In this document: piece by piece, positions 1,566 through 61,928 of the stretch
Layout: each line of letters starts with the position of its first letter
How positions within the stretch are numbered: the stretch's first letter is position 1
NCBI GenBank assembly: GCA_020854035.1
Contig: JADZGE010000058.1
Coordinates: forward strand, 43,001-107,000
Origin: Burkholderiales bacterium
GTDB lineage: Bacteria > Pseudomonadota > Gammaproteobacteria > Burkholderiales > SG8-41
Length of the DNA stretch: 64,000 bases
Direction of reading: 5' to 3'
The notes under the pieces: model-generated
The model's input: only the letters and a program-made list of their open reading frames with translations
The model's database searches: none
What the model was told of the DNA's origin: nothing
Translations under genes and position numbers: made by a program

Positions 1566-1584
1566 ACGACCCGGAACGAGAAAG

Positions 1585-1618: not shown

Positions 1619-1632
1619 TTCGAAAACCGCGC

Positions 1633-5437: not shown

Positions 5438-6403
5438 ATGCGCAGGTTGCCTGGACTCACGGCCGCACTCCTGCTCACCGCTTTTGCGGGGGGCGCCATC
5501 GCCCAGAACTTCCCCAGCCGCCCGGTGCGCCTCGTAGTGCCGCTCGCGCCCGGCGGCACCAATGACACCCTCGGTCGCATAGTCGCCGGGCCGCTCGGCG
5601 AGCGCCTCGGCCAGCAGTTCGTGGTCGACAACCGGCCCGGCGGGAACAGCCTCATCGGTTCGGCCATCGTTGCGCGCGCCCTGCCCGATGGGCACACGCT
5701 GCTCATCATGGGTGCCGGCCACTCGATCAATCCCAGCCTGCAGCGCTCGCTGCCCTACGACACCCTGAGGGACTTCGCGCCGGTCGGGCTGGTGGGCGGG
5801 GGGCCGTATCTCCTCGTGGTCCACCCGTCCGTTCCGGCGCAGGCGGCGAAAGAATTCGTTGCGTGGGTGAAGGGACGCCCGGGAAAGGTGAACTACGCTT
5901 CGGCCGGCGTCGGCAATCCCACGCACCTCTGCGGCGAACTTCTCAACCTCGCCGCGGGTATCGACATGACGCACGTACCGTACAAGGGTGGCGGCGCCGT
6001 GCTGCCCGACCTCGTCGCGGGACGGGTGTCGGCGTTCTTCTCGTCGATCTCCACGACGCAGGCCCACGTGCAGGCGGGGCGACTGCGCTCGATAGCGGTG
6101 ACGACGGTTCAACGCACGCCGTTCCTGCCCGAAGTGCCGACGTTCGTGGAAGCCGGGTTTCCCGGGGTCGTGGTGAACGCCTGGTACGGCATCCTCGCGA
6201 CGGGCGGGACGCCCCGCGCGATCGTCGACCGCCTGAGCGACGAGTTGCGCAAGGTGCTCGCCGAGCCGGCGGTCCGCGACCAGATCACGAAGCGCGGCAT
6301 CTCCCCCGAGGCGACGACCGCGAGCGAGTTCGACAAGCTCATCCGGGCGGACATGGTGAAGTGGGCAAAGGTGGTGAAGGCGGCGGGGATCCAGCCGGAG
6401 TAG
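5438..6403 (+). CDS. Bug/TctC-family periplasmic substrate-binding protein (1 of 9)
   Basis: 321 residues from the ATG at 5438, behind GAGGAGCAGCC; the longer ORF in the track includes non-coding upstream sequence. A signal peptide ends at about GGAIAQ, then comes the family opening SRPVRLVVPLAPGGTND and the later HVPYKGGG and LPEVPTFVEAG motifs. Bug proteins capture small carboxylates or amides in the periplasm. They either feed tripartite tricarboxylate (TctAB) transporters or act as sensors. No TctA or TctB gene is in the window. The SDR gene begins 31 nt downstream, followed by enoyl-CoA hydratase and acyl-CoA dehydrogenase genes on the same strand, which suggests an organic-acid ligand whose CoA ester is then degraded. 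Confidence 0.9.
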   Translation: MRRLPGLTAALLLTAFAGGAIAQNFPSRPVRLVVPLAPGGTNDTLGRIVAGPLGERLGQQFVVDNRPGGNSLIGSAIVARALPDGHTLLIMGAGHSINPSLQRSLPYDTLRDFAPVGLVGGGPYLLVVHPSVPAQAAKEFVAWVKGRPGKVNYASAGVGNPTHLCGELLNLAAGIDMTHVPYKGGGAVLPDLVAGRVSAFFSSISTTQAHVQAGRLRSIAVTTVQRTPFLPEVPTFVEAGFPGVVVNAWYGILATGGTPRAIVDRLSDELRKVLAEPAVRDQITKRGISPEATTASEFDKLIRADMVKWAKVVKAAGIQPE

Positions 6404-6434
6404 CGATCGGCCGCGGCGCCGCGGAGGATACGGG

Positions 6435-7241
6435 ATGCAACAGGACACGCCCCGGCGTTTCGCCGGCAAGGTCGCGATCGTGACGGGCGCGGGCAACGGC
6501 ATCGGCGTCCCGCTCGCGACGCGTCTCGCGGCGGAAGGTGCGGCGGTCGTGCTCGCGGACAAGGACCTCGCCGCCGCCGAAAAAGTGTGCGCGGACATCG
6601 TCGCCGGGGGCGGCAGGGCGGCCGCCTGCCGCGTTGACATCTGCGTGCCGCAGCAGGTGGAGGCGATGACGGCGTTTTGCCGGGAGCGTTTCGGCCCCGC
6701 GCACATCATGATGAACAACGCGGGCATCGGCGGCCAGCGGCATTTCCTCGAGACACCGCTCGAAACGCTCCAGAAGCTCCTCTCGACGAACCTCGTCGGC
6801 ACGTTCCTCTGTGCCCAGGCCGCGGCGCGCGACATGGCGGGGCTCGGCGGCGGCGCGATCGTCAATTTTTCGTCGCACTCGGGGCTCCTCGGCAGCAGCG
6901 GGCGCGCCGCGTACGCGGCCTCGAAGAGCGGCATCATCGGCATGACGCGTGTCATGGCGGTGGATCTCGCCGCGCACGGCATCCGGGTGAACGCGGTCGC
7001 CCCCGGCACGGTGGCGACCCCGCGCATCCGGGCAAGCCACAACGACGAACGCCGCGAGGCGTGGCTGAAGGCGATTCCCATGGCCCGCTACGGTGAACCC
7101 CACGAGATCGCGGCGGCCGCGATCTTCCTCGCGTCCGAGGACGCGGCCTACGTGACCGGCCAGACGATCGCCGTGGACGGCGGTTTCACGATCGCCGGAC
7201 TGCGCGTGAAGAACCTCGCGGCGCGCGATGGATCGTACTGA
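6435..7241 (+). CDS. Short-chain dehydrogenase/reductase
   Basis: 268 residues of classical SDR form. It has VTGAGNGIG (Rossmann glycine loop, near residue 17), the NNAG motif, a serine in the SSHSG strand, and the catalytic YAASKSG (Tyr-x3-Lys). The C-terminal part keeps VAPGTVATP and the usual DAAYVTGQTIAVDGG end. Such enzymes oxidise or reduce a secondary alcohol or ketone with NAD(P). It lies 31 nt after a Bug receptor and upstream of an enoyl-CoA hydratase and an acyl-CoA dehydrogenase. A 3-hydroxyacyl-CoA or cyclic-alcohol dehydrogenase role in that pathway is a reasonable inference, but the substrate cannot be read from sequence. Confidence 0.88.
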   Translation: MQQDTPRRFAGKVAIVTGAGNGIGVPLATRLAAEGAAVVLADKDLAAAEKVCADIVAGGGRAAACRVDICVPQQVEAMTAFCRERFGPAHIMMNNAGIGGQRHFLETPLETLQKLLSTNLVGTFLCAQAAARDMAGLGGGAIVNFSSHSGLLGSSGRAAYAASKSGIIGMTRVMAVDLAAHGIRVNAVAPGTVATPRIRASHNDERREAWLKAIPMARYGEPHEIAAAAIFLASEDAAYVTGQTIAVDGGFTIAGLRVKNLAARDGSY

Positions 7242-7435
7242 CGGACCGGCCTCGTCACGACCGGCTGACCGGGAGGGTCGGGCCAATCCTCGCGAGGCTC
7301 CGATGCGTTCCCTTGCGGCGCCGCCGAACCCGTTTGGCGCCATGGATCGCAAACGCGTGCCGCCCGCCCGCGCCTGATCCGCGCTGGCCAACCCCGCACC
7401 ACTCGAGAACAACCGATACGAGAGAGGCTGAAATC

Positions 7436-8221
7436 ATGAGCGAAGTCGCAGCGACCGAAGAAGTCGGCGTGAACCTCGAAGGGCACGTCGCGACCGTGGA
7501 GATCCGCCGCCCGCCCAACAACTTCCTCGACGTGGACCTGATCGAGGCGCTCGCCGGGGTGGTCGAAGCGCTCGACCGCGAGCCGCGGTGCCGCGCGCTT
7601 GTCCTCGCCGCGGCGGGCAAGCACTTCTCCGCGGGCGCGAACCTCATGCGGCGCCTGCACGCGGACCCGGGAGCCCAGGCCGAGCGCAAGCACCTCTACC
7701 ACGAAGCGCAGCGCCTCGTGCGGACGAGGAAGCCCATCGTCGCCGCGGTACACGGTTCCGCCATCGGCGCGGGACTCGGACTCGCGCTCGTCGCGGATTT
7801 CCGTGTCACCTGCAAGGAGGCGCGCCTCGCCGCGAACTTCTGCGCGCTCGGCTACCACCCCGGCTTCGGGCTGACGGCGACGTTGCCGCGGCTCGTCGGC
7901 CACCAGAAGGCGCAGTGGCTCTTCTACACCGGCCGGCGGCTCCCCGGCGACGAGGCGTACGCGCTGGGGCTGGCGGATCGGCTTGTCGCGCAGGACGAGG
8001 TGCGCGCGGCGGCACGGGAGATGGCGGCGGAGCTCGCGAAGATCGCCCCGCTCGCGCTGCAGGCGACGCGCCACACGATGCGCCTCGATCTCGTCCCGGC
8101 GTTCCGCGCCGCGACCGAGCGCGAGGCGCTCGAGCAGCAGGTGCTGCGTGGAACCGACGATTTCAGGGAAGGCGTGAAGGCGAGCAGCGAGCGGCGCGAA
8201 CCGAATTTCACCGGCACGTAG
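7436..8221 (+). CDS. Enoyl-CoA hydratase/isomerase family protein
   Basis: 261 residues from the ATG at 7436, behind GAGAGGCTGAAATC; the track ORF begins 41 codons earlier in non-coding sequence. Crotonase-fold signatures are clear: an oxyanion-hole strand in AAAGKHFSAGANL, then VHGSAIGAGLGLALVADFRV, then LGYHPGFGLTATLPRLVG. The usual second acidic residue position reads GFGLT, as in crotonase subclasses outside fatty-acid beta-oxidation, so hydration, isomerisation or C-C hydrolysis are all possible. It probably acts on a CoA thioester in the cytosol. The acyl-CoA dehydrogenase gene follows after 73 nt on the same strand. Confidence 0.87.
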   Translation: MSEVAATEEVGVNLEGHVATVEIRRPPNNFLDVDLIEALAGVVEALDREPRCRALVLAAAGKHFSAGANLMRRLHADPGAQAERKHLYHEAQRLVRTRKPIVAAVHGSAIGAGLGLALVADFRVTCKEARLAANFCALGYHPGFGLTATLPRLVGHQKAQWLFYTGRRLPGDEAYALGLADRLVAQDEVRAAAREMAAELAKIAPLALQATRHTMRLDLVPAFRAATEREALEQQVLRGTDDFREGVKASSERREPNFTGT

Positions 8222-8294
8222 CCATTCGCCGGTGCCGGCGAATTCATCGCCATGTTTGACCGCGGAATACCGGACAGGACCCTGGGAGACGACA

Positions 8295-9461
8295 GTGTAC
8301 GAGTTGACGCAGGAAGACCGGATGCTGAAGGATCTCGTCGCGAGGTTCGTGAACGACGAGTTGATGCCGCTGGAACAGAAGATACTCGCGCGCGACGCGG
8401 CCGGCGAAGGCCCGCTCAGCTTCGTGCGGGAGGAGCTGGAGCACCTCGACGCGCGCGCGAAGGAGCTCGGGCTGTGGGGACTCGACGCGCCCGCGGAGTT
8501 CGGCGGCTCCGACCTCCCGGTCACCTCCATGATCGGGGTGAACGAGGAACTCGGGCGCTGCAGCCTGATCTATCGCTTCCCGCCCGACTCGCCGAATCTC
8601 CACATGCTGATGAAGGTCTGCAGCGAGGAGCAGAAGGCCGAGTATCTCGCGCCCTACGCCCGCGGCGAGAAGCGCTCGGCGATCGCGATCTCGGAGCCGG
8701 GCGGTGGCGGCGACCCGGCCTCGATGCGGGCGCGCGCGCAGCGCGCGCGGGGAGGCTGGCTGATCAACGGCCGCAAGATCTGGGTGAGCGGGCTCGACCG
8801 CGCCGATTTCGTCATCGTCATGGCGGTAACCGACCCCGAGAAGCGCGCGCGCGGCGGGATCTCGGCCTTCCTCGTGGACAAGGGCACGCCGGGATTCACG
8901 ATCCTGCGCCGTATCCCGATGATCGGCGGGCGCACGACCTTCGAGCTCGCGTTCGACGATTGCTGGGTACCGGAATCGAAGCTGCTCGGCCAGGAAGGCA
9001 ATGGCTACGGCCCGATGCAGTTGCGGCTCTCCACGCGGCGCGTTCAGATCGGCGCGATCTGCGTCGGCCGCGCGAAGCGCGCGCTCGACATGCTGGTCGA
9101 ATGGGCGCCGCAGCGGAAAACCTTCGGGGTGCCGTTGTCCGAGCGCCAGGCGATACAGTGGTGGATGGCGGACGCCGCCACGAAGATACACGCTACCCGC
9201 CTCATGACCTACGACGCCGCGGAAAAGGTGACCCGCGGCGAGGAGGCCCGCACCGAGATCTCGATGCTGAAGGTGTTCGCCACCGAGATGGCGACCGAAA
9301 TCGTGGACCACGCGCAGCAGGCATTCGGCGCGATGGGCATGACGCGCGAGATGCCGTTCCACCTGATGGCGGCGCAGTTGCGAGTCATGCGCATCTACGA
9401 GGGGCCGACCGAAGTGCACCGGATGCTCGTCGCGCGGCACGTGCTGCAACGGCGATTCTGA
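8295..9461 (+). CDS. Acyl-CoA dehydrogenase
   Basis: 388 residues if read from the GTG at 8295, which sits behind GGGAGAC and gives VYELTQEDRMLKDLV, the normal N-terminal helix. The 21 extra residues in the track ORF are unlikely. The FAD-binding part shows AIAISEPGGGGDPASM, and the C-terminus has MRIYEGPTEVHRMLVAR, where the Glu of YEG is the usual catalytic base. The enzyme makes a 2,3-enoyl-CoA and passes electrons to electron-transfer flavoprotein. With the hydratase and SDR genes just upstream it completes a beta-oxidation-like set, apparently without a thiolase or CoA ligase in the window. Confidence 0.9.
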   Translation: MYELTQEDRMLKDLVARFVNDELMPLEQKILARDAAGEGPLSFVREELEHLDARAKELGLWGLDAPAEFGGSDLPVTSMIGVNEELGRCSLIYRFPPDSPNLHMLMKVCSEEQKAEYLAPYARGEKRSAIAISEPGGGGDPASMRARAQRARGGWLINGRKIWVSGLDRADFVIVMAVTDPEKRARGGISAFLVDKGTPGFTILRRIPMIGGRTTFELAFDDCWVPESKLLGQEGNGYGPMQLRLSTRRVQIGAICVGRAKRALDMLVEWAPQRKTFGVPLSERQAIQWWMADAATKIHATRLMTYDAAEKVTRGEEARTEISMLKVFATEMATEIVDHAQQAFGAMGMTREMPFHLMAAQLRVMRIYEGPTEVHRMLVARHVLQRRF

Positions 9462-9601
9462 TTCGCGCCTGCGTGCCGGACTCCGCCCGGGCGGCCGCGA
9501 TGCCGGAGCCGGCTCCGATGGTGATCGCCAAGGCCCGGACGCCCGCCCGGTTCATCCGCCTTCATCGGCATCCGAAGAAGGCGAAGCAAGTGCCATTCGG
9601 G

Positions 9602-39192: not shown

Positions 39193-40173
39193 CTATTCCA
39201 CTTTCGCGTTGGCCTGGCGCACGACCTTTTCCCAGAACGCGAGGTTCGTCCTGATGTAGGAACGGAAGTTCTCGGGAGTCGATATCAGCGGACTTGCGCC
39301 AAGCGCCGCGAAGCGCTCCAGCAGAGCGGGTTGTGGCTCGGCGAGAAACGCCGCGAGAGCGCCGTTCAGTTTCCGTACCACCGGGCCCGGCGTGCCACCG
39401 GGCGCAAGCACGCCGTACCACTGATCGACGTCGTAACCTTCGATTCCGGACTCGGAAACGCTGGGGATATCCGGCACGAACGGCATCCTCTTTTCCGTGG
39501 TCACCGCGAGCGCCCGGAGCCTGCCGCTATTCAGAAACGCGATGCACGCGGGAAGACTCGACATCGTGAAATCGACCCTGCCGCCCAGCAGATCCGCCAG
39601 GGCCGGGGCAAGGCCCTTGTAGGGCACGTGCTGTATTCGCACCTTGGTCATGCTTTTCAGCAGCTCTCCCGCAAGATGGCCGACGCTGCCATTGCCCCCG
39701 GTCGAGTAGTTGAGCTGCCCCGGTTTCGCTCTCGCGAGCGCGAGGAGTTCCTTGATCGAGCGCACGGGCAGGGACGGGCGGACGACGACGACGAAAGGCG
39801 ACGACACCACCCTCGCGACGGGCGAAAAATCCCTGATGGGGTCGTACGGCGCGTTCGCATAGAGGTTCGGATTGATCGTGAAGCTCGATGTCGCAAAAAG
39901 TATCGTGTAGCCGTCCGCCGTGGCCTTGGCCGCCATTCCGGTGGCGGTCGAAGAACCGGCTCCGGGCCGGTTGTCGACAACAACCTGTGAAGCGAGCTTG
40001 CCGCCGAGCTCCGCGGATATGAGGCGCGCCATGATATCGGCGCCTCCCCCCGGCGGAAAGCCCACGATCATTCGTATCGGTCTGTCGGGATACGCTTCGG
40101 CCCCGCTCGAGGCCGCTCCCAGGCAGGCGCCTGCAGCGGCCGCGGCGAGAAACAGATGGCCGGCGATCGTCAT
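39193..40173 (-). CDS. Bug/TctC-family periplasmic substrate-binding protein (8 of 9)
   Basis: 326 residues from the ATG at 40173. The track shows one 911-residue ORF, but the Bug part starts with its own signal peptide (MTIAGHLFLAAAAAGACLG) ending AEAYPDRPIRMIVGFPPGGG. The motif is HVPYKGLA and IPSVSESGIEGYDVDQW follows. Its ATG overlaps the TGA that ends the molybdopterin oxidoreductase reading frame (ATGA), a translational-coupling arrangement. The long fusion ORF arises only because the enzyme gene is frameshifted. Confidence 0.9.
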   Translation of the reverse strand: MTIAGHLFLAAAAAGACLGAASSGAEAYPDRPIRMIVGFPPGGGADIMARLISAELGGKLASQVVVDNRPGAGSSTATGMAAKATADGYTILFATSSFTINPNLYANAPYDPIRDFSPVARVVSSPFVVVVRPSLPVRSIKELLALARAKPGQLNYSTGGNGSVGHLAGELLKSMTKVRIQHVPYKGLAPALADLLGGRVDFTMSSLPACIAFLNSGRLRALAVTTEKRMPFVPDIPSVSESGIEGYDVDQWYGVLAPGGTPGPVVRKLNGALAAFLAEPQPALLERFAALGASPLISTPENFRSYIRTNLAFWEKVVRQANAKVE

Positions 40174-41862
40174 GGCGCACCCCCGGCCGCGCCGACCGCG
40201 GGACGCGGAATCTCGTGCGGTTCGGCGCGCGCGATTCGACAGGCCGTGTTCCGCGCTTCGGCCGAGCCGGAGATCGGATCCCACGGCGGACCATAGGGAA
40301 TGGCGACGTCGATATTGAAAGTGAGCGCGCCGTGATCGGCACCCTCGATCTCCGGGTACCACCATCCCATGCCGGTCGCCACCACCCCGTCCGGGACCTC
40401 GTCCGTGATCAGCGCCTTCAGCAAAGCCCTTCTCGATATCGCTTCTTGCCTCTCCCATGGCCGGCAGCACCCGCTGCACCACCGAAAGACAGGGCCCGCT
40501 CTGATCCACCGAAACGTCATCTTCCTCGAGCTGCGTCGTCTTCGGCAGCACGAAGTCCGCGAGTTCCGCGGTCGGCGTGATGTGATCGGTCGCGACGACC
40601 AGCAGGTCGAGCCTGCCGAGCGCCGCGATCGTATCGCGGATATCCGGGTACGTGCAGACGATGTTGACCCCGCTTGCATACAGGGCCTTGACGGGATAGG
40701 GCTCTCCCGTCAACACGGCGCGAATCAGCGAGGGGTTGTGCGAGGACTTCGACCAGCTGTCCGGGCCGCACCAGAGCGGAAACCGCTCGCCACCGATGAT
40801 GGTCCGCTCTATCTCTTCGGGCAGGCGGAAAGTCCGATCGTTGATGATATTGAAGTAATCACGAAAACCCGCCTGCTGTTTCGGCAGGCGGTTGGTACCC
40901 TCGCGGTCGAGATTTCCCGTGAGGGCGAGAAGCGCGTGATAACCGATCGTCGTCCTTACGCCGTTCGCCTGCGCGTCCACTCCGTGGCCAAGAATCAGGC
41001 ATCCCGGCTTCGTCGTCGCGAAGGTTCGCGCGGCGTGCACGATGGTGTCGACCGGCAAACCCGTGATTCCGGATGCGACCGCGGGCGGATAGCGCGCCGC
41101 GCGTTCCCGCAGGCGCTCCTCACCCGTGCACCACTCCCCGACAAAATCGCGGTCCTGCAGGTCTTCATCGAAGATCACGTGGATCATCGATAGCGCGAGC
41201 GCCGCATCGGTACCCGGCTTGATTCGCAGCCATTGGTCCGACATGTTCGCGACCTGCGTGCCTCGCGGATCCACGACGATGATCCGCGCGCCCGCTCTCC
41301 TCGCCTGCTTGATATTCATCCATTGCACCACGTTCGAATCGGACGGGCTTTCCCCGATCACGAGAACGCAGCGCGCCCTGGCGAGCTCGTTTCCCGGCTG
41401 CGCGCTCGCGCCGGTCAGCATGGCCGCGGTATAGCGGCAACCCTGGCACAGATCCTGGTTGATCATGTAGTTGGGCGAGCCGATGCTGCGCAGGAGCTGC
41501 GTCATCGCGACCCCGCGGCTCACGAAATGATTCGATACTGCGCCGGCAATCGCCGTGGCGCCGAATTCGGACTTGACGCGCCGCATTTGTTCGGCGATCG
41601 CGTCGAACGCTTCGTCCCAGGAGATTCTCCGCCACTTGCCGTCCCCGCGCTCGCCGGCACGGCGCAAGGGATACAGAGGCCGGTCGGCGTGCTCGCGAGC
41701 GACAATGGGCGCGTTCATTCCCTTGACGCAGAACGCCCCCCGCGAGCCCGGATGCCCCGGATTGCCGGTTATGCGTACGACGCGGCCGTCCTCGACGTGG
41801 ACGAGCGCGCCGCACCGAACCGAGCACTCCTTGCAGGTGGTCGGAATCACTCTGGTCGTCAT
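40170..41862 (-). pseudogene. Molybdopterin oxidoreductase with internal deletion and frameshift
   Basis: Read from the ATG at 41862 (MTTRVIPTTCKEC). The [4Fe-4S] motif C-x2-C-x3-C-x27-C (CKECSVRC...FCVKG), GRVVRITGNPGHP, and a DLCQGCRYTAAML segment with a probable Mo-ligand Cys are present. The first frame is good to about GEARSDIE near 40437, then turns to shadow sequence. The next frame continues from there as ALLKALITDEVPDGVVATGMG, WWYPEIEG and IARAEPHEIPRP to the TGA at 40170-40172. This is the family's C-terminal molydopterin-binding end. At least 100 residues between these parts are missing and the frame shifts at the junction, so the product is unlikely to be active. Confidence 0.75.
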
Positions 41863-42003
41863 GAATGCCCCCCACGAACAATCACGATATCGAGAAGCCG
41901 TGCGATGCGTCTCTCGCGATACGCCCAAGCGAGCTTCTTCCGTTGACGCGCCGCAGTCTCACGAGCTTCGACCGGGTGAATGCTATTTCCGCGCGCATAG
42001 GCG

Positions 42004-50448: not shown

Positions 50449-52746
50449 ATGCCGGATCCGGGCGAAAAAATGGCGAACGGGTGGGGTACTACCCTGGGCG
50501 CAAGACGGCGAACCGACGCAGTCGAACCCGCATGGGCCGCGAACGGGCACTTCGCGATTGACGCGGACCGGCGCATCGTCGAATGGGACGACGCGATGGC
50601 GCGCCTGCTCGGCATGTCGCGAGAGGAGGCGCTGGGCACCTCTTGTAACTGCGCGATCGGCGGCAAGAACGATTTCGGTCGTGACGTGTGCGGGTCGGCC
50701 TGTGCCGCCTTGCGGAGACTGGCCGCGGGGAACGTCGCCGGCACATCGCGGTTGCTCGTACGCAGGATCGACGGCCAGCGCCTTCGGCTGGCTTGTGACC
50801 TCACGACTCTTCCATCCGGCGGCGCGCTGGGGAGGCTGCATCCCGCCGACGATGCGGGGCCCGATCTCGCTCACGACCTCGCCGGCATCGCGGCGCTCGC
50901 CACGCGTGTGTCGGAGGAGCCGTTGCAGCAGGGCCTGCGCCTCACGCTCGATTTCCTGCTGCACGCGACCGCCGCCGACGCCGGCGAGGCGTTTCTCGCG
51001 GAGCCGCATGGCCGCGGCATGGTGCGCACCTGCCACCGCGGCTGCTTCGGGCGCGTGTTCGACGAGTTGCTGCGCTTCGATCCCGGCGAAGGCTTCCCCG
51101 GCCTTGTGCTCTCGCACGGCCGGCCGGTCTACACCGAGCACCTTCCGCAGGACGCGCGGTTCCTGCGCACGCACGTAAAGCAGGAAGGGTTCAGCACCTA
51201 CGTGTGCAGCCCGCTCTCCAGCCGCAGCGATACCCTCGGATGCCTCGCGCTCGCCTTCCGCCGCTCCGACATCGATCTCGAGCGCGTGCTCAATCTGCTG
51301 CGCTGGGCCGGCACACCGATGGGGCTCGCGGCCGACACGGCGCTCGCCCGGCTGCGCGACGCGGCAGGAACCCCGCTGCAGGGTGCGGGAGACGATCCAT
51401 GGCGGCGGCTGCCGCAGGCACTGCGGGCCGTGCTGCAGCAGATGGTGCGAACGAGTCGCGCCGATGGCGGCGAGCTCTACCTGCCGTGGCCGGACCTGGA
51501 GGTACGCGCGCTCGTGCCGGATGCCGCCGCCGTGCCGCGCTGCCCGACGATGAGCGCGGGCACGATCCGGCGCTGTCCGGGCTTCGACACCGGCACGAGC
51601 ACCCTCCTGCACGGCCGCCGCGTGAGCTGGCCGGCCGCGTGCCGCGGCGCTCCGCGCCCGGGTGGCGCCTGGTGCTGCATCCCGATGTCCTGCGAAGGCG
51701 AGTCGCTGGGCATGATCCGCCTGCGCTATCGCCGCCTGCGTCCGTCGCCGCCGCACGAGAACATCGCCCCGCTCGAGGGGATCGCTTCGCTCGCCGCGGA
51801 GAAACTGCGCGAGCTGCGCGGCCGGATCGCCCGGACTCCCCGCGCGGACACGGCGCTGCACGAGTGGCTGCAACGCGCGGTGGAGGTACCGGGAACGGGC
51901 ACGCCGGCGCGAGCCCCGCGGCGCGCTTTGCCCGTCCCCGGCGGCGCGCGCTGCGACGGGGCGCGCCTCGAGATCCGCTGCTTTGCTCGCCTGGAACTCA
52001 TGGTGGAGGGCGCCCGGGTCGCCCCGGCAGCAATCCGGCGCAAGCGGGTCCTGACGCTGCTCGGCATCCTGCTCACCCATCACGATCAGCCGCAATCCCG
52101 GGACGCGCTGATCGAGATGCTGTGGCCAGGCGCGGATCCGCAAGTGCGCAGCGGGCAGTTCCACGTGCTGGTCCACGAGCTGCGCAGGCTGCTCGATCCC
52201 GCAGGCCGTGCGAACGAGCACCCGTACGTGCGCAATCGGGCCGACCGTTACGCATTCGATACGCAATCGCCGTGCTGGATCGACACGCTGGAATTCCGCA
52301 CGCTGCTCGAGCTCGGGCGCAAGGCGGAAGCCGCGAACGAGCTGCAAGCCGCGATCGGGGCCTACGAGTCGGCCGCCGATCTCTATCGGGGCGACTACCT
52401 GCAGGACGAACCGTTCGCTCAGTGGTGCTGGCAGACGCGCGAGCAGTTGCGCGAGGCCTGCCTCGGCATGCTCAACCGGCTGACGGCGCTGTCGGGAAGG
52501 CTTGGACACTGGGAGAAGAGCGCGGCATGGTCGCGGCGCGCGCTGCTGCTCGACCCGTTGCGCGAGGAGATGCATCGTGCGCTGATGTACGCACTGTGGG
52601 CGGCGGGGCGGCGCGACGAGGCCGCACGGCAGTACGAGGCATGCGCACACCTGCTGCGCGAGCAGCTCGACCTCGCTCCGCTCCCCGAAACCGAGCAGCT
52701 CTTCGCGCGCATCCGCGCCGCCCCCCGGCCCGATGCCGGCCACTGA
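50449..52746 (+). CDS. Large transcriptional regulator: Cys-containing PAS-like, two GAF-like, BTAD output
   Basis: 765 residues. A PAS-like region (32-110) has HFAIDADRRIVEWDDAMARL and then four Cys, C66, C68, C81 and C85 (SCNCAIGG...DVCGSAC). Residues ~150-310 and ~325-490 look like GAF domains (LRLTLDFLLHATAADAGEAF and LPQALRAVLQQMVRTSRADG). The end is SARP-like: winged helix about 507-605 (RKRVLTLLGILLTHHDQPQSRDALIEMLWPG) and a BTAD tetratricopeptide region about 610-755 with REQLREACLGMLNRLTAL. It probably senses redox or small ligands and activates genes, but no target is obvious. Its closest neighbours are YceI and an FAD-oxidoreductase remnant. Confidence 0.82.
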   Translation: MPDPGEKMANGWGTTLGARRRTDAVEPAWAANGHFAIDADRRIVEWDDAMARLLGMSREEALGTSCNCAIGGKNDFGRDVCGSACAALRRLAAGNVAGTSRLLVRRIDGQRLRLACDLTTLPSGGALGRLHPADDAGPDLAHDLAGIAALATRVSEEPLQQGLRLTLDFLLHATAADAGEAFLAEPHGRGMVRTCHRGCFGRVFDELLRFDPGEGFPGLVLSHGRPVYTEHLPQDARFLRTHVKQEGFSTYVCSPLSSRSDTLGCLALAFRRSDIDLERVLNLLRWAGTPMGLAADTALARLRDAAGTPLQGAGDDPWRRLPQALRAVLQQMVRTSRADGGELYLPWPDLEVRALVPDAAAVPRCPTMSAGTIRRCPGFDTGTSTLLHGRRVSWPAACRGAPRPGGAWCCIPMSCEGESLGMIRLRYRRLRPSPPHENIAPLEGIASLAAEKLRELRGRIARTPRADTALHEWLQRAVEVPGTGTPARAPRRALPVPGGARCDGARLEIRCFARLELMVEGARVAPAAIRRKRVLTLLGILLTHHDQPQSRDALIEMLWPGADPQVRSGQFHVLVHELRRLLDPAGRANEHPYVRNRADRYAFDTQSPCWIDTLEFRTLLELGRKAEAANELQAAIGAYESAADLYRGDYLQDEPFAQWCWQTREQLREACLGMLNRLTALSGRLGHWEKSAAWSRRALLLDPLREEMHRALMYALWAAGRRDEAARQYEACAHLLREQLDLAPLPETEQLFARIRAAPRPDAGH

Positions 52747-53172: not shown

Positions 53173-56001
53173 TCACGCAGGGCGAGTGCCGTCTGCCAGT
53201 TGCTCCAGAACATACGGCATGATTCCACCGGCGGAGAAGTAAGCCACCTCGATCGGCGTGTCGATCCGAAGCTGCAGCGGCACCGCTTCGCGCCGCCCGT
53301 CGCGGCGTTCGATGCGGAGCTTCGCGCTTCCACGCGGCCGCAACGCGCCGTCGAGCTCGACATCGAAGCGCTCGCTGCCATCCAGGGCGAGCGTTCTCGC
53401 GCTCACGCCTTCCCCGAGCTGGCAGGGCAGCACGCCCATGCCGATGAGGTTGACGCGGTGGATGCGCTCGAACCCGCGGGCGATCACGGCGCGTACGCCG
53501 AGGAGACGCGTGCCCTTGGCGGCCCAGTCGCGCGAGCTGCCCGAGCCGTAGTCCTGTCCCGCGATCACGACCAGCGGCACGCCCTCGGCGCGGTAGCGCT
53601 CGGCGGCGTCGTAGATGCCCATGCGCTCGCCTTCCGGCTGGTGCACGGTGACGCCGCCCTCGACACCGGGCACCATGAGGTTGTGAACGCGCACGTTGGC
53701 GAACGTGCCGCGCACCATCACCTCGTGGTTGCCGCGGCGCGCGCCGTAGCTGTTGAAGTCGGCTTCCGCCACCCCGTGTTCGAGCAGGTAGTGGCCGGCG
53801 GGCGAGGCCGGCCGGATGGCACCCGCCGGGCTGATGTGGTCGGTGGTGATCGAATCGTCGAGGATGGCGAGGGCACGCGCACCGGATACCGCGGCCGACG
53901 GCGGTTGCGCCATCGCCGCGCTGAAATACGGCGGTTCGCGGATATAGAGCGAGCCCGGCTCCCACTCGTAGAGGAGCCCGTTGCCGACGGGGATGTCGTT
54001 CCACATCGGGTTCTGGCGTGCGAAGCCGCCGTACACGCGGCGGTACTCCCGCGGATCGAAGGCACTAGCGAGGAGAGCATCGATTTCCCGCGCCGACGGC
54101 CAGAGCTCGCGCAGGAAGACATCGCGCCCGCCCGCGCTCGCCAGCGGCTCGCGCGTAAGGTCGATGTCGATGCGCCCGGCGAGGGCGAACGCGACCACCA
54201 GCGGCGGGTTCATGAGGAAGTTCGCCTTCACGCTCTGGTGAATGCGCGCCTCGAAGTTGCGGTTGCCCGACAGTACGCTGGCGACGATGAGGTCCTCGTT
54301 CACCACCGTTTCCTCGAGCTCCCGGTCGAGCGGGCCGGAGTTCCCGATGCAGGTCGTGCAGCCGAAGCCGACGAGCTGAAAGCCCAGCTGGTCCAGGTAG
54401 GGCTGCAGCCCGGTTTTCGCCAGGTACTCGCTCACCACGCGCGAGCCCGGGGCGAGCGAGGTCTTCACCCAGGGCTTGACGGTGAGCCCGCGTTCGACCG
54501 CCTTGCGCGCAAGCAGGCCCGCCGCGAGCATGACCACCGGGTTCGAAGTGTTGGTGCACGAAGTGATCGCCGCGATGACCACATCGCCGTGCTGCAGCTC
54601 GCAGGCCGCGGGACGCGCGTGCCGTGGCGCCTGCTCCCCGGGCCGGTTCGGCGTCGGCCGGTTGTTCATCATCTCGGCCTCGGTCTGCGGGTTGGTGTCC
54701 TGCGTGTGTCCCGCGGGAAGCACGTCCCCGGATTGCTCGCCGCCCCCCGGCCGCGGCGGCGGGCCGTCCCCGAGCCGCACGGCTGCGCGCCGCGTCGCCT
54801 GCGGCTTGCCGTAGCCGTCCGCGCCGTGTAGCAGGGAGAGAAACCGCTCCTTGAGCTCGCCCAGGCCGATCCGGTCCTGGGGGCGCCTGGGGCCGGCGAC
54901 CGAGGGCTCGATCGCCGCGAGATCGACGTCGATCACCTGCGAGTAGTCGCACTGGCCCTTCCCCGGCATGCCGAACAGCCCCTGCGCGCTGAAGTAGCGC
55001 CGCACGGTCTCGACCTGCTCGTCGCTGCGCCCGGTCGCCTTCAGGTAGCGGCAGGTCTCGCCGTCCACCGGGAAAAAGCCGATCGTGGCGCCGTATTCCG
55101 GCGCCATGTTGCCGAGCGTCGCGCGCTCGGAGACGGAAAGGCGCGCGGCGCCCTCGCCGTGAAACTCGACGAACTTGCCGACCACGCGCGCCTGACGCAG
55201 GACCTCGGTGATGCGCAGCACGAGATCGGTGGCGGTCGCCCCCGGTCGCAGCTCGCCGTGCAGGTGCACGCCGACAACATCGGGCAGGAGGAGGTACACC
55301 GGCTGGCCCAGCATCGCCGCCTCGGCCTCGATCCCGCCCACGCCCCAGCCGAGCACGGCGAGCCCATTCACCATCGTGGTGTGCGAGTCGGTGCCGACCA
55401 GCGTGTCCGGATACAGCACGCCGTCCTTCTCCAGCACGCCGTGCGCCAGGAACTCGAGATTCACCTGGTGGCAGATGCCGAATCCCGGCGGCACGATGCG
55501 CAACCCATCGAAGGCCTGCGCGCCCCATTTGAGGAAGCGGTAGCGCTCGTCGTTGCGCCGGAACTCCATCTCCATGTTGAGCCGCAGCGCTTGCTGCTGG
55601 CCGAAGTAATCGACCTGGACGGAGTGGTCGATGACGAGATCGACCGGCACCGCCGGCTGCACGCGCCGCACGTCGCGCCCGCGCCGGACCATCGCCCCAC
55701 GCATCGCGGCGAGATCGACGAGCAGCGGCACTCCGGTGAAGTCCTGCAGGAGCACGCGCGCCACGACGAACGGTACTTCCGCGGTGCGCGTTGCGGCCGG
55801 CTGCCATCGGGCGAGCGCCTCGATATCTCCCTCGCCGATGCGCCGGCCATCGGCGTTGCGCAGCACCGACTCGAGCACGATGCGCAGGCTGACGGGCAGC
55901 CGGGAGAGCCGCACACCGGCTTTTTTTTCGAGCAGCGGGAGCGAGTAATAGGCCACGGTCTTCCCGGACGGGAGCTCCAGACGCCGGCGCACCTCGATCA
56001 T
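53173..56001 (-). CDS. acnA: Aconitate hydratase A
   Basis: 942 residues. All key motifs are present: [58 protein letters not shown] and [12 protein letters not shown] (three cluster Cys), then [16 protein letters not shown] with catalytic Ser/Arg and [15 protein letters not shown]. It interconverts citrate and isocitrate with a [4Fe-4S] cluster. An extra Pro/Gly-rich linker (residues ~390-470) precedes the Cys motif, making it about 50 residues longer than E. coli AcnA. The gene starts 54 nt after the broken aceE, probably in one transcript. Confidence 0.96.
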
Positions 56002-56055
56002 GGTTCTTCCCCTTCAATGAGACAGGCTTCGGGGCTCCCGCTCCGGTCGTCCCGG

Positions 56056-58375
56056 TCAAACCGTTACAGGGTTCGGGCTTTCGGGATCGATCCCGTAGTT
56101 GCGGATCGCTTCACTCACTCTTGCCGGCGACACCGCTTTGATGTCGGAGAGGGCTTTCATCGCGGCGACGGCCACGTAGTGGCGGTCGATCTCGAAGAAC
56201 CTGCGCAACTTCTCGCGCGTATCCGAGCGGCCGAATCCATCGGTACCGAGGGCGGAGACGTGGCGGCCGGGAAGAAACGGGGAGATCTGGTGAGAAAAAA
56301 GCTTGATGTAGTCTGTCGCTGCGATAATCGGCCCGTCGCGGTCCTTGAGGCAGGCCTGCAGGTGCGATACGCGCGGCGCGTGCCCGGGGTGCAGCATGTT
56401 CCAGCGCTCCACCGCCAGGGCATCGCGCCTCAGCTCGTTGAAACTCGTGGCGCTCCAGGTGTCCGCCGAAACGCCGAAATCGCGTTCGAGCAGTTCGGCG
56501 GCGGCGATGACTTCGCGCAGGATCGTTCCGCTGCCGAGCAGCTGGACCTTTGGGGCACCCTTGCGCGTCTCGCCTTCGCGCAGCAAATACATGCCTTTCA
56601 GGATCGCTTTCTCCACGCCCCCGGGCATCGGCGGGTGCGCGTAATTCTCGTTCATCACGGTGATGTAGTAATAGATATCCTCCTGCTCCCGATACATCCT
56701 GCGCAGGCCGTCCTGGATGATCACGGCGAGCTCGTAGCAAAACGCCGGATCGTACGAAATACAGCCCGGTATCGTCGACGCAAGGATGTGGCTGTGGCCA
56801 TATTCGTGCTGCAGGCCTTCACCGTTTAGCGTCGTGCGTCCCGCCGTGCCGCCGAGGAGAAATCCCCGCGCACGCATATCGCCTGCGGCCCAGGCGAAAT
56901 CGCCCATTCGCTGGAAGCCGAACATCGAGTAGAAGATGTAGAACGGGATCATCGGCTGGCCGTGCGTGCTGTAGGACGTCGCGGCCGCGATCCACGAACA
57001 CATCGCGCCTGCCTCGGTGATGCCTTCCTCGAGAATCTGGCCCTTTTTGTCTTCCCTGTAGTACATCAACTGTTCCGAATCCTGGGGACGATAGAGCTGG
57101 CCCACCGGGGAGTAGATACCGAGCTGACGGAACATCCCTTCCATGCCGAAGGTGCGTGATGTTCTGGCCCTCGCCCGACTCGCCCATGCCGTAGCCTTTG
57201 ACCGTCTTCGCCAGAATAACGGTGGGTTGACCCTCGTGCCGGATCGCCGCCGCATAGGCGGCGTAGACCTTGTGCGGGTCGTGACCACCGCGGTTCAAGC
57301 GCCAGATATCGTCGTCCGACATGTGCGCCACCATGTCCAGGAGCTCGGGGTATTTCCCGAAGAAATGCTTGCGCACGTACGCACCGTCGTTCGCCTTGAA
57401 GGCTTGGTATTCGCCGTCGACGCATTCCTCCATGCGCCTGAGCAGCAGGCCTTCGGTATCCCGCGCCAGCAGCGGATCCCAGTACGAACCCCAGATGACC
57501 TTGATGACGTTCCACCCCGCTCCGCGAAAAACCGATTCCAGCTCCTGGATGATCTTGCCATTGCCGCGCACGGGACCATCGAGCCGCTGCAGGTTGCAGT
57601 TGATGACGAAGATCAGATTGTCAAGCCGCTCGCGTGCCGCGACGGAGATTGCGCCAAGGGATTCCGGCTCGTCCATCTCGCCATCGCCCAGGAATGCCCA
57701 TACCTTGCGGCCCTCCGTATCGACAATGCCCCGAGCTTGAAGATATTTCATGAAGCGCCCCTGGTAGATGGCCATCAGGGGCCCGAGTCCCATGGATACG
57801 ATCGGGAACTGCCAGAAATCGGGCATCAGCCACGGGTGCGGGTACGAGGACAATCCCTTGCCGCCAACCTCCCGGCGAAAATGCTTCAACTGCTCCTCGG
57901 TGAGGCGCCCTTCGAGAAACGCGCGGGCGTAGATGCCCGGGGAGGAGTGCCCTTGCAGGTAGACCAGGTCGCCGCCATGCTTATCCGAAGGGGCATGAAA
58001 GAAATGGTTGAAGCCGACATCGTACAAAGTTGCAGCCGAAGAGAATGTGGCGATGTGTCCGCCGATACCGTGGGATTCCTTGTTCGCGCGTACCACCATC
58101 GCCATTGCGTTCCAACGCACCAGCGAGCGGATCTTGTGCTCGAGCGCCGCGTCGCCCGGCGAGCGCTGTCCCCGTGAGGGCGGAATGGTGTTGATGTACG
58201 GCGTGTTGGCGCTGTAGCGGATGTCAGCGCCGTTGCGCCGCGCTTTCTCCATCAGTTTCTCGAGCAGGAAACTCGCGCGTGCCGCGCCCTCGCGCTCCAG
58301 CACCGAATCGAGCGCCTCGAGCCACTCTCTTGTTTCCAGCGGATCCGTATCGGGATTCATGTTCTCGATGTCCAT
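56056..58375 (-). pseudogene. aceE: Pyruvate dehydrogenase E1 (aceE) with internal deletion and frameshift
   Basis: Two overlapping frames are the ends of AceE. The first, from about 58375, has [37 protein letters not shown] (thiamine-diphosphate motif) and [19 protein letters not shown]. The second starts [20 protein letters not shown] and runs through EGLQHEYGHSHILAS to FGRSDTREKLRRFFEID. In E. coli AceE about 110 residues lie between the two parts; here they abut at 57150-57160 with the six bases CGCACC shared by both ends, and the frame is lost. Active E1 cannot be made from this gene without a second copy. No aceF or lpd is seen next to it. Confidence 0.82.
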
Positions 58376-59055
58376 GGCTCGCATCGTTCGAGGGCCACCA
58401 GCCGGCGGCGCAGGTCATGCGATCAGCCGCGATGACCTGCTCCAGCATCCCGTCGAACCCAGGCAGCCAGTCCTTCGTGCGGATCTCGCCGGGGGGCGTG
58501 GCGGATGTCTCTTGATGATTCTGCGGTCGGATCGAAGTCGTCAACCGGGATCAAGACCGTATGCATCTCAGTGCCTGCCGCACGTAGGACATGCCGGCGA
58601 AGGGCAAGGTTCCCACACGCCGAGCAGCTGGCGTGGCTTCCATGACCACGCGACGTTGTGGATCGCTGCCTCTGGCTTTCTCGCGGTGCAGCGGTTCAAA
58701 GCAGGCATCGAGAAAGCCTTGTCCTCTACCGCGAACGCTCTCCCTGTCCCGAGATCACCACCCACGTGCGAGCCGGACGAGCACGGCGCCACGTGCCCGA
58801 CTCGATCCCGGCGCTGCGATATCGAATTGCCCGCGAACTCGTGCGCCTTCTGCCTCGCTGCCGCTGCTGCGGCTCGTTGAGTGCCCTACGCGGCAGCGGC
58901 GCCCGCTGCCGGTGGGCGCCATCTTCGGACAGCCATCGGCGCCGGGAGATTTCACATTCAATACGCCCGCGCGCGACGTTGTGACATCAACCGGGGGACG
59001 GTGAGCGCGACGGACGTGGTGGTGGCGCGGGCGACGCAGTGATCGGGAGAGGCGC
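58376..59055. other. Region without an intact gene
   Basis: No intact gene is seen in 680 nt. On the minus strand an ATG at 58566 opens MHTVLIPVDDFDP, like the first strand of a universal stress protein, but it soon loses any match and stops. The other frames are Arg/Ser-rich shadows. It may hold decayed stress genes, in keeping with the CBS and OsmC genes nearby. Confidence 0.35.
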
Positions 59056-59217
59056 ATGGAACACTTCCTGCTGGGTGGGTTGCTGATCGGCGGTCCGATC
59101 GCAATCTCCGGCGCGATCACCATCGCATGCTTCGTGGCCATGTTCGTGATGCTGTTCCGGCGCGCCGGGTGGGATGCGCGGAACCCGAAGCATCACGTGC
59201 CGCGCGACGATCGATGA
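59056..59217 (+). CDS. Small membrane protein, 53 residues
   Basis: Too short for the ORF track. ATG at 59056 with GGGAGAGG upstream. It reads MEHFLLGGLLIGGPIAISGA followed by more hydrophobic residues (ITIACFVAMFVMLF), then the charged tail RRAGWDARNPKHHVPRDDR. One or two transmembrane helices with a positively charged C-terminus inside are expected. I do not recognise the family. Similar small proteins often sit beside stress or respiratory genes, but no function is assigned. Confidence 0.55.
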   Translation: MEHFLLGGLLIGGPIAISGAITIACFVAMFVMLFRRAGWDARNPKHHVPRDDR

Positions 59218-59450
59218 GGATTCCCTCGTGCGCGGATTCCGGGCTTCGCGATGAACGCCCTCGGCGCCGAGGAGCCGTTCGAGCCGCGGCGCGCGAAGTC
59301 ACCCGCACCGATCCCGGTGCGGCTGTGGGTACTGTCGCTGGTGATCGTGGCGAGGGCGGTGTGGAGGTGTCCCGTTGCGAGGATCATACCTGATGCGGGG
59401 TTGCATTCCGGGCGGTATGCGGCTCTGGTCATCGGGCATGGATACACTCC

Positions 59451-59789
59451 TCATGCGTGGGTTGCATGGCTCATGACATCGATCGCCAGCGCGGAGTGGG
59501 CGTAAGCGCCTCCCGCGCGCATTTCTGCCGCGACCCAGATCGCCTCCATGATTTCCTCCTCGGTCGCACCGCGCTTCAGCGCCCCCGCGGTGTGCCCGCG
59601 GATACAGTACGGGCATTGCGTGACATGTGCGACGGCTACTGCGATCAGCTGCTTGGTCTTCTCTGAAAGCGCACCTTCCGCGAATACGGCCTTGCCGAAA
59701 GCCTGGAACGCCTCGAGTTGCCTGGGCGCGAGCTGCTTGCGCTTCCCGGCGATTTCGCGGGTCGAGGCGGGATAAAGGGTTTGTTCCAC
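59451..59789 (-). CDS. AhpD-like carboxymuconolactone decarboxylase-family protein
   Basis: 112 residues, GTG start at 59789 with CGGGAG upstream. The core is KTKQLIAVAVAHVTQCPYCIRGH, with C59, C62 and H66, the redox-active Cys pair of AhpD-like proteins, followed by GALKRGATEEEIMEAIWVAA. These small helical proteins reduce peroxiredoxin or act in hydroperoxide stress; some are decarboxylases. It is about 140 nt upstream of the OsmC stop in the same orientation, so both may be stress-linked. Confidence 0.9.
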   Translation of the reverse strand: MEQTLYPASTREIAGKRKQLAPRQLEAFQAFGKAVFAEGALSEKTKQLIAVAVAHVTQCPYCIRGHTAGALKRGATEEEIMEAIWVAAEMRAGGAYAHSALAIDVMSHATHA

Positions 59790-59927
59790 GAGGATCTCCC
59801 GATCAATAACCGGAAAACTCTTCCGTCCGGATGCGGCCTTCGTTCACGGCGGCGTCGCCCGGAATCCTTCTCCACGAAGCCAGCATCGACGCCGTTCCCG
59901 ACCGGCACGGGTAATGGATCGCGCCGG

Positions 59928-60353
59928 TTACTTGAGGGTCGCCGCGAGCGTGATCTCCGTGCCGGCGAGAGCCTGTGACACCGGGCATCCCGCTTTCGCG
60001 GCCTCGGCCCATTGCATGAAGGCGGCGCGATCGATGCCCGGTACTTTCGCCTCGCAGACGAGATGGCTCCCCTTGATTCTGAAGCCACCGTCCTGCGGGG
60101 AAATGGTGACCTGCGCGGTGGCGTCGATGTAATCGGGCTTGAAGCCGGCATTTCCCAGCATCAGCGACAGCGCCATCGCGAAGCAGCCGGCGTGCGCCGC
60201 ACCGAGGAGTTCCTCGGGATTCGTTCCACCGCCGCTTTCGAAGCGGGAGCTGAACGAGTACGGCGCCTTGAACGCCCCCTTCCCGAAGCAGACCTGGCCC
60301 CTGCCTTCCTTGATGCTCCCTTCCCAGCGTGCATGCGCTTCGCGTGTAGCCAT
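59928..60353 (-). CDS. OsmC/Ohr-family peroxiredoxin-like protein
   Basis: 141 residues from the ATG at 60353 with GGAAAGGACC upstream; the track ORF is longer. Both redox Cys are present: C57 in LLGAAHAGCFAMALSLML and C123 in AKAGCPVSQALAGTEITL. The opening (HARWEGSIKEGRGQVCFGKG) is typical of OsmC. It reduces organic hydroperoxides with a lipoyl or thiol donor. It stands upstream of the AhpD-like gene in one possible transcript and is divergent from the CBS remnant at 60474. Confidence 0.92.
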   Translation of the reverse strand: MATREAHARWEGSIKEGRGQVCFGKGAFKAPYSFSSRFESGGGTNPEELLGAAHAGCFAMALSLMLGNAGFKPDYIDATAQVTISPQDGGFRIKGSHLVCEAKVPGIDRAAFMQWAEAAKAGCPVSQALAGTEITLAATLK

Positions 60354-60473
60354 TGCGGTCCTTTCCCAACGTATCGCTCTCGATGTTGAGACCGCGCCGG
60401 CGCAATTTCGTTTCATCCGTCTTGAACGCTCAGGAGCGCATCGGAAAGCCCGAGAAATCATGACCTCACCATC

Positions 60474-60625
60474 ATGACGCGCGCAGTCGCGACCGTACCG
60501 CCCGATACGCCGGTCATGGAGATCCCCACACTGCCCGAATCCCGGAGCATCAAACGGGTCCCGGTCACGCACGAGGACCGGGTCGCTGGCATCATCAGCC
60601 GATCGAAGTCGGCGATTCCGGCGCG
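60474..60625 (+). pseudogene. CBS-domain protein remnant
   Basis: The plus frame reads MTRAVATVPPDTPVMEIPTL and then SIKRVPVTHEDRVAGIISRS, which is a single CBS motif (usual form MT-x-V-T-V-x-P-D-T-x-V, R-I-K-R-V-P-V, G-x-I-S-R). After this it loses match and ends as Arg/Ser-rich shadow. CBS proteins in betaproteobacteria usually have two such motifs and often a BON domain. Only half of one pair is visible, so this is called a remnant. It is divergent from the OsmC gene. Confidence 0.5.
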
Positions 60626-61019
60626 ACACGGCTGGCCATGTACGGCGGGCTTGTACGGTTATCGAAGGCGCGGCACGATGTGGACACGCACGTCACCATC
60701 ATCCCGAATCACGGCAAGCGTCGGGTGAACCATGGGCATCGGCGCGCTCTACGTTTCGGCGCAAGTCCACGACGACCGGGACGCACTTTCCGACAACCAG
60801 CTCAAGTGGTTCGCCGCCGCCACCGCGGGCACGGCCAGGCTCGCCGCATCGCCGCATCCACACCCCCTTGCGTCTCGGTCTTTGACACAACGCTCACGAA
60901 CTCGCCGCTTCGGGTTCACGGCCCCGCCCGGCGACTTTCCCGCCCGACTGGAAGTGCAATGGAAGCGCGTGCCCCTATGATCCCCACGGCGTCGGAACAT
61001 CGCGGTCCGGGGGTGGAGG
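60626..61019. other. Region before the cytochrome c gene, no gene seen
   Basis: About 390 nt. A plus ORF at 60732 reads VSAQVHDDRDALSDNQLKWF but has no recognisable family and a basic, low-complexity end. No FNR box (TTGAT-N4-ATCAA) was found here, although nar genes are usually controlled that way. Confidence 0.3.
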
Positions 61020-61928
61020 ATGGCGAGCAGGGCGAGCACACCGCGGCAAAGGCTGTCCGTCGCCACGCTCGCGGCGATCGCGGGTGTGGCCGCCGCGCTG
61101 GCGGGTCCGGCGAACACCGCCGGCGCCGGGACGGCGTCGGGCCAGCGGATCTTCCAGCAGAGCTGCTCCGCCTGCCACACCATCGGCGGAGGTGACCTGG
61201 TCGGCCCCGACCTGAAGGGCGTCACCGCGACGCGTCCGCGCGAGTGGCTCGAGCGCTGGATCGCCGCGCCCGACCGCATGCTCGCCGCGAAGGACCCGGT
61301 TGCGACCGAGCTGCTGCGCCGCTTCCACGACGTGCCGATGCCGAACCTGCAGCTCGGCGCTGCCGAGGTGAGCGCGGTCCTCGCCTACCTCGAGAGCGCC
61401 GCGCCAGGTCCTGCGGCTCAGGCCGCGCCGGCCTCGAGCACGAGCGAGGTCGCTGGCGACGCGCCGATCGGCAAGGAGCTTTTCACCGGCACCCGGCGCT
61501 TTGCCAACGCCGGACCGCCGTGCATGGCCTGCCACAGCGTCTCCGGCATCGGCGCGTTCGGCGGCGGCCAGCTCGGCCCCGACCTGACCACGGTGGTGAC
61601 GCGCCTCGGCGGGCCGGGCGCAGTCGATGCCTATCTCACCGGCTCGCCGACCTGGACCATGCGGGCAATCTGGTCGCGCCGGCCGATGACGGGCGAGGAG
61701 CGCGCCGACGTGATCGCGTTCCTGCGCGATGCGGCGGTGACCGAGCGCCCGGCGCAGGCAATCTGGCAGCTCGCGGGGCTCGCTCTACTGGGGCTTGCGA
61801 TCCTGCTCGCGCTTGCCGGCTGGTTCGGGCGCGGGCGGCTGCGCGATGGCGTGCGGCGCCCGATGCTCGCGAGATCACGGCACGCCGGCGCCGCGCGCGG
61901 CGCGGCGGGCGCAGCGAGGAGAAGCTGA
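61020..61928 (+). CDS. Diheme c-type cytochrome with C-terminal membrane anchor (NarC-like position)
   Basis: 302 residues. Signal-like N-terminus with [20 protein letters not shown]. Two CxxCH heme sites: C49-S-A-C52-H53 ([20 protein letters not shown]) and C168-M-A-C171-H172 ([20 protein letters not shown]). Later a transmembrane helix ([20 protein letters not shown]) and a basic tail. It is a membrane-anchored periplasmic electron carrier. The stop overlaps the ATG of narG by one base (TGATG). A diheme cytochrome c gene just before narG resembles narC of Thermus-type nar operons, so it probably hands electrons to or from the nitrate reductase. Confidence 0.9.

Follow-up and report, generated by a model that had tools for sequence, protein, structure and literature searches.

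The window, that is, the whole stretch of 64,000 nucleotides that was analysed, carries a DnrS-like regulator gene in one unbroken frame (50449-52746, plus strand; 765 aa) and, 8.3 kb downstream on the same contig, narC and narG genes with a candidate operator in front of them. The features are as follows.

50449-52746, plus strand: DnrS-like regulator with PAS-GAF-GAF-DNA-binding-BTAD architecture, 765 aa; start codon at 50449 or 50470
50539-50844, plus strand: PAS domain, aa 31-132 (Pfam PAS, 26.9 bits), carrying C66, C81, C85 and C116
50866-51342, plus strand: GAF1, aa 140-298 (Pfam GAF_2, 47.7 bits)
51397-51834, plus strand: GAF2, aa 317-462 (AlphaFold2 and Foldseek), carrying C365, C376, C398 and C410
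51967-52257, plus strand: OmpR-type winged-helix DNA-binding domain, aa 507-603 (Trans_reg_C, 24.7 bits; EmbR fold match)
52279-52719, plus strand: BTAD, aa 611-757 (Pfam BTAD, 91.9 bits)
53173-60629, minus strand: housekeeping genes acnA, aceE, CMD and OsmC between regulator and narC, outside the system
60949-60981, plus strand: proposed operator/promoter of narC, TGGAAG-N5-TGGAAG-N10-TATGAT, with the -10 box at 60976-60981
61020-61928, plus strand: narC-like c-type cytochrome (Cytochrom_C, 62.1 bits), 66% identical to narC of locus L106
61955-64000, plus strand: narG of the Thermus/Chloroflexota type (TIGR01580, 886 bits), cut by the contig end

A sequence-only reading of this DNA had described the regulator as a PAS, two GAF and a SARP-like BTAD module. 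Pfam upholds the PAS (aa 31-65, 26.9 bits against a cut-off of 22.6), the first GAF (GAF_2, aa 159-283, 47.7 bits) and the BTAD (PF03704, aa 611-756, 91.9 bits against 22.1), and places Trans_reg_C (PF00486, aa 533-589) slightly below its cut-off (24.7 bits against 26.2). The second GAF had no Pfam match in the regulator and is supported by fold alone. An AlphaFold2 model of the full protein, built with 14 family members, reached a mean pLDDT of 83.9, with ordered blocks at residues 27-132, 140-298, 317-462 and 507-757 and a disordered linker at 466-503. Modelled separately, residues 312-465 (pLDDT 85.8, pTM 0.84) gave solved GAF domains as the best Foldseek matches, with GAF-A of DosS at the top (E 2.5e-5, 14% identity); the models thus support two GAF domains, the second by fold only. 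The C-terminal part superposes on EmbR (2ff4; 3.3 Å over 256 columns, TMt 0.58), and the sequence matches of the regulator in the PDB are AfsR (E 7e-7) and EmbR. The output is of the SARP type, with an OmpR-type domain ahead of a BTAD. The reading frame is more than a chance ORF: homologues built in the same way are present in several phyla, and at the DNA level one in a Burkholderiaceae metagenome-assembled genome (MAG) is 73% identical to this gene.

The immediate neighbours say little. A "relic flavoprotein" had been proposed next door, and we rejected it: the 425-bp gap upstream of the regulator has no Pfam match on either strand, and beyond it lies an intact gene for a GFO/IDH/MocA oxidoreductase. 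The other neighbour had been recognised correctly as an exported lipid-binding protein; it is a YceI protein (137 bits). Neither carries weight, because neither is conserved beside the relative at locus L067, where we found a Bug receptor, a CoA transferase and a hydantoinase and nothing in common with the window. A further molybdopterin oxidoreductase (40006-41928, minus strand; PF00384, 156 bits, plus an Fe4S4 domain) lies 8.5 kb upstream of the regulator. Among the housekeeping genes, pyruvate dehydrogenase E1 (56056-58384, minus strand) is split into two overlapping frames of 521 and 410 aa, reflecting a frameshift in the gene or in the assembly.

Judged by homology, the closest characterised relative of the regulator is DnrS of Thermus. 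When the sensory half was searched against plasmid records (tblastn), the top match was Thermus DnrS, with 37% identity over 224 aa (aa 61-284; E 8e-24); the whole regulator covered 57% (E 4e-21), with 32% identity overall in the alignment. The matched gene, which codes for a GAF-BTAD protein, precedes narCGHJI and has a Crp-type gene as its neighbour, the two forming dnrST; the next matches were Deinococcus proteins from clusters with a molybdopterin oxidoreductase and a nitrate/nitrite transporter. DnrS is an activator that is needed for nar expression in Thermus and requires anoxia (PMC5748679, PMC6282519, PMC7694296); an oxygen-sensitive conformation has been shown for Thermus DnrS only (PMC7694296). 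In the open-access literature, only the Thermus work brought "bacterial transcriptional activator domain", GAF and nitrate reductase together in one paper. Homology over the sensory and BTAD halves, together with linkage to narCGHJI, places the protein in the DnrS family by sequence. No crp-type dnrT gene follows the regulator (acnA, encoded on the opposite strand, comes next), and because this bicistronic partner is missing we call it DnrS-like and do not class it with the dnrST systems.

When GTDB genomes were scanned with the sensory half, 17 loci came back, from the Burkholderiaceae MAG (69%), Chloroflexota, Schekmanbacteria, Deinococcota, CPR1 and Thermaceae; L082 and L083 are histidine kinases judged by sequence. 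Most of the relatives adjoin narCGHJI or an operon that looks Nxr-like. No full-length homologue was found among 149 genomes of the same genus, family and order. BTAD output, which the sequence-only reading had held to be less common in betaproteobacteria, is in itself not rare here: 32 of 149 order-level genomes match the protein, mostly via the BTAD of unrelated large regulators; other matches there were to the Cys-bearing PAS of small PAS-LuxR proteins. This PAS is also fused straight to a BTAD with no GAFs (L038, L040-L043; about 400 aa) and to a LuxR-type HTH, and fusion loci also include L022, L023 and L028; it thus appears, by sequence comparison, to be a portable sensory module in proteobacteria. 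The large BTAD-ATPase regulators of proteobacteria share the BTAD output, and the Cys-PAS-BTAD proteins both the BTAD and the Cys-PAS; both lack GAFs and have no full-length similarity to the regulator.

The sensory part has two conserved four-cysteine sets, one in the PAS and one in GAF2. We counted cysteines in an alignment of 24 family members, with denominators that vary by position. In the PAS, C66 is conserved in 19/20, C81 in 18/19, C85 in 20/20 and C116 in 17/20; in GAF2, C365 is conserved in 18/20, C376 in 22/23, C398 in 23/23 and C410 in 23/24, with the spacing C-X10-C-X21-C-X11-C. The four PAS cysteines first singled out (C66, C68, C81 and C85) are all present, and three are conserved, whereas C68 is private to this protein (one of 15 PAS-bearing members, missing in the other 14); that set was also incomplete, having passed over C116 and the whole GAF2 set. 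The underlying idea of a cysteine-based metal or redox sensor stands, as does the domain reading; of the conditions that the sequence-only reading had set for its own refutation, none applies to the domains, and lack of conservation applies to C68 alone of its four cysteines. Neither set is indispensable across the family, because natural variants lack one set or single cysteines: the Deinococcus members and one from Chloroflexota (G538) have no PAS and keep all or most GAF2 cysteines, L068 keeps the PAS set but has few of the GAF2 cysteines left, and single PAS cysteines are missing in G608, G560, L071 and L072.

Four conserved cysteines in a sensory domain are what the sequence of an NreB/FNR-like Fe-S oxygen sensor would present, and precedents exist in the [4Fe-4S] PAS of NreB and the [2Fe-2S] cysteine cluster of AirS (PMC4601167). 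The most likely role of the PAS and GAF2 cysteines is to bind a putative iron-sulfur cluster that oxygen destroys, or else to form a thiol-based redox centre of another kind. A real if lesser possibility is that regulator and target are the same and the sensor is not an Fe-S protein, working instead as a thiol/disulfide switch or carrying structural zinc, with redox or a GAF1-bound small molecule as the signal. The incomplete conservation of the cysteines would fit, as would GAF1, the best conserved region of the family alignment and one that could bind a ligand, and the DosS GAF-A-like fold of GAF2. Fe-S is favoured instead by the NreB and AirS precedents and by the finding of two four-cysteine sets in a protein with a link to anaerobic respiration.

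The narG of the window is 85% identical to that of L106, 76% to that of a Chloroflexota relative (G516) and 65% to Thermus narG, but only 51% to the canonical narG of its own genome. Some narG occurs in 54 of the 149 order-level relatives, this genome included; none of the others has the window type (best 61% over a partial match, mostly about 52%), and among the 149 the regulator is confined to this genome, as is this narG type. L106, which belongs to the genome of the closest regulator relative and which we kept unjoined from the separate sequence L067, has the regulator directly upstream of narC, in the one-strand order dnrS-like>narC>narG>ppi (FKBP isomerase)>narH>narJ>narI. The regulator also adjoins nar directly in L070/G518 and L072, in L162 and in G538, as does the second regulator of G519 (L142/L109), and a narG above the curated cut-off was present in 8/8 genomes with a full-length relative picked by the sensory half. 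Downstream of the regulator in G557 comes an operon rich in cytochromes that includes a type II molybdoenzyme, a beta subunit and a chaperone and looks Nxr-like, and in L158 the regulator stands beside a type II molybdoenzyme. This L158 operon (1050-9592, minus strand; Chloroflexota) encodes an 1183-aa type II molybdoenzyme, a beta subunit, a c-type cytochrome, a TorD-like chaperone and a membrane subunit that matches nothing in NCBIfam; it carries the same operator and may be Nxr-like or a periplasmic nitrate reductase. An exclusive tie of regulator to narG in Chloroflexota did not hold at first sight, as four regulator genomes have no narG; of these, however, G557 and G608 have an Nxr-like operon, or the first gene of one, next to the regulator, and the locus leads in G531 into a narC-like cytochrome at the contig end and in G560 into the companion gene described below, also at a contig end.

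Regulator and NarG trees both group the window with G515 and G516, and Thermus with Calidithermus, and differ at deeper nodes, with a weak overall correlation (Mantel r 0.29, p 0.06). Congruence is restricted to these two groups, and strict co-inheritance is therefore not claimed. Regulator and narCG were likely transferred into this lineage from a Chloroflexota-like source. The assembly is of draft quality, with 86% completeness, 5.8% contamination and narG cut by the contig end, and the linkage of regulator and narC is physical if the assembly is right. Neither NirK nor NirS was found in it, and nitrate respiration, not nitrite reduction by those enzymes, is therefore the expected target.

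Comparison of the regions upstream of narC revealed a direct repeat. The window site reads TGGAAG-TGCAA-TGGAAG-CGCGTGCCCC-TATGAT. Sites of the same geometry precede narC in L106 (TGGAAG-CGTAC-GGGAAG-N10-CAAGAT, one mismatch in the repeat), L107 (TGGAAG-N5-TGGAAG-N10-TAAGAA), L109 (-10 GAAAAT), L072 (TGTAAG-N5-TGTAAG-N10-TAAAGT) and L108 (TGTAAG-N5-TGTAAG-N10-TATCCT), and the nar operon in L089 (-10 TAGAGT). In L068 a triple repeat, resembling the three-heptamer operator of PimR (PMC5930380), stands before the regulator gene itself, and the repeat adjoins the regulator gene in 4/4 further Chloroflexota loci, none of which was used to derive the motif. TGKAAG-N5-TGKAAG occurs once in the 5.03-Mb genome of the window, at narC, once in G518 (at nar), three times in G516 (narC and regulator) and twice in G519 (both on the nar contig). 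In SARP operators the direct repeats are spaced at 11 bp, and 8 bp separate the 3' repeat from the -10 box (PMC10936776). If the repeat unit is taken to be the 8-mer TGGAAGYG, the site in the window matches this spacing exactly; the predicted sites at narC here and in the relatives have the layout of SARP operators. In the window and in L067 alike, no repeat was found ahead of the regulator gene, and none of the TGGAAG consensus at the Thermus, Deinococcus and Calidithermus promoters; because the Thermus and Deinococcus promoters lack it, the operator is not family-wide. Upstream of dnrS in Thermus and other Thermaceae (L034, L073, L076, L077, L079, L078 and L080) lies a palindrome-like GGGACAT-N-TGTCCTA, which could be a site of DnrT or another dimeric regulator.

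That the narC repeat belongs to another OmpR-type response regulator, a class II direct-repeat activator, is unlikely. TGTAAG-N5-TGTAAG-N10-TANNNT is indeed frequent in order-level relatives that lack the DnrS-like regulator (25 sites in 20 of them, against 3 in a reversed control), where a different OmpR-type regulator probably uses it as operator; given this frequency of the TGTAAG form, specificity is limited to the TGGAAG form. The TGGAAG form with a -10 box gave one site among the 149 relatives searched, in this genome, where narC alone has it, and the repeat tracks the regulator gene in L068, L142 and L158-L161.

A still smaller chance attaches to another local target (acnA/aceE or YceI), or to an orphan passenger whose nearness to narC is accidental. 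Counting against narC as the target are the 8.3 kb and unrelated genes in between, the missing dnrT-like gene and the missing operator at the regulator's own gene. On the other side, the regulator adjoins narCGHJI in the closest relative and in Chloroflexota, Deinococcota and CPR1 loci, the operator at narC is unique, and the regulator co-occurs with this narG type only.

The reading that we prefer, with a probability of about 0.7, is that the regulator is a DnrS-type one-component, redox- or oxygen-responsive activator of the horizontally acquired narC operon. DnrS-like identity, the two cysteine sets, linkage to nar/nxr operons and operator geometry are its sequence-derived side; from them we infer direct binding to the repeat, activation rather than repression, an oxygen or redox signal and an Fe-S centre. 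The regulator would be cytoplasmic, and under oxygen the sensor would keep the DNA-binding half inactive. At low oxygen, one or more intact cysteine-ligated centres in PAS-GAF1-GAF2 would free the OmpR-type and BTAD half, and two protomers would bind the 11-bp-spaced TGGAAG-N5-TGGAAG as a side-by-side dimer. At the narC promoter, which has no good -35 box, the repeat would take the place of that box, and the bound regulator would recruit RNA polymerase and turn on the narCGHJI nitrate reductase operon. A heme-based sensor like DosS/DosT is most improbable: in fold, GAF2 does come closest to the heme GAF of DosS, but likeness at 14% identity speaks for fold only, and a 17-member alignment contains no invariant or nearly invariant His that could serve as the conserved proximal ligand of a heme GAF.

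The protein is like DnrS of Thermus thermophilus, encoded in the dnrST operon of the nitrate respiration conjugative element, in its GAF-GAF-BTAD core with an N-terminal Cys-bearing module, in three PAS cysteines, C116 and the four GAF2 cysteines, and in its tie to narCGHJI; it differs in a recognisable full PAS fold, longer C-terminal helices, the absence of an adjoining dnrT and another promoter repeat. With the SARPs AfsR and EmbR it shares the OmpR-type domain plus BTAD and, as predicted for the site here, 11-bp-spaced direct repeats upstream of a -10 box, but its SARP module is C-terminal behind PAS-GAF-GAF, it has no ATPase or FHA part, and its predicted target is anaerobic respiration instead of antibiotic synthesis. 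NreB, a staphylococcal PAS histidine kinase with a [4Fe-4S] cluster, also has a four-cysteine PAS and a role in nitrate respiration control (predicted here); compared at the PAS only, it contrasts with a one-component activator that has no kinase. The staphylococcal histidine kinase AirS likewise has four cysteines in its sensory part, with a Cys-X7-Cys-X-Cys-X17-Cys [2Fe-2S] motif (PMC4601167) that differs from the C-X10-C-X21-C-X11-C here, as does the output.

The regulator is a real and well-supported DnrS-like activator, of a kind already known; what it adds is the two cysteine sets, the spread over phyla and a predicted operator. How DnrS senses oxygen has been open since its description, because the Thermus protein is unstable and has not been obtainable in active form (PMC5748679, PMC7694296). 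New here are relatives in other phyla, two four-cysteine candidate centres, natural variants that lack one set and a predicted DNA target; the variants and the target open sensor and output each to testing. DnrS-type control also appears to extend across several phyla, with nitrate reductase and Nxr-like operons as its targets, and a recent review of nitrate-respiration control contains neither "DnrS" nor "Thermus" in its text (PMC8139620). The DnrS kinship, the narC-narG pair at the window end and the direct repeat at narC had been absent from the context given by the sequence-only reading. More speculatively, the family might form a cross-phylum class of one-component SARP activators with dual Fe-S (PAS and GAF2) oxygen sensing that travels with the TGKAAG-N5-TGKAAG operator and NarG/Nxr-type operons, a portable anoxia switch standing in for FNR and NarXL on an acquired operon, the Burkholderiales copy and its nitrate reductase having been acquired together from a Chloroflexota-like donor.

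A small conserved protein, about 70-85 aa long, follows the regulator or operator in nar loci of Chloroflexota and Deinococcota, at the following positions.

L089, 394-606, plus strand: small conserved protein
L142, 1952-2161, minus strand: small conserved protein
L159, 293-502, minus strand: small conserved protein
L160, 780-1031, minus strand: small conserved protein
L161, 7796-8002, plus strand: small conserved protein
L162, 9541-9795, plus strand: small conserved protein
L033, 1325-1522, plus strand: small conserved protein

It has no Pfam family and is absent from the window. Its consensus is SFVITLWLEP...EWRWRV.HVQSGEE.YFRRL.DLLSYIE, and a relative of it lies near the Cys-PAS-BTAD genes of proteobacteria (L038, L040-L043).
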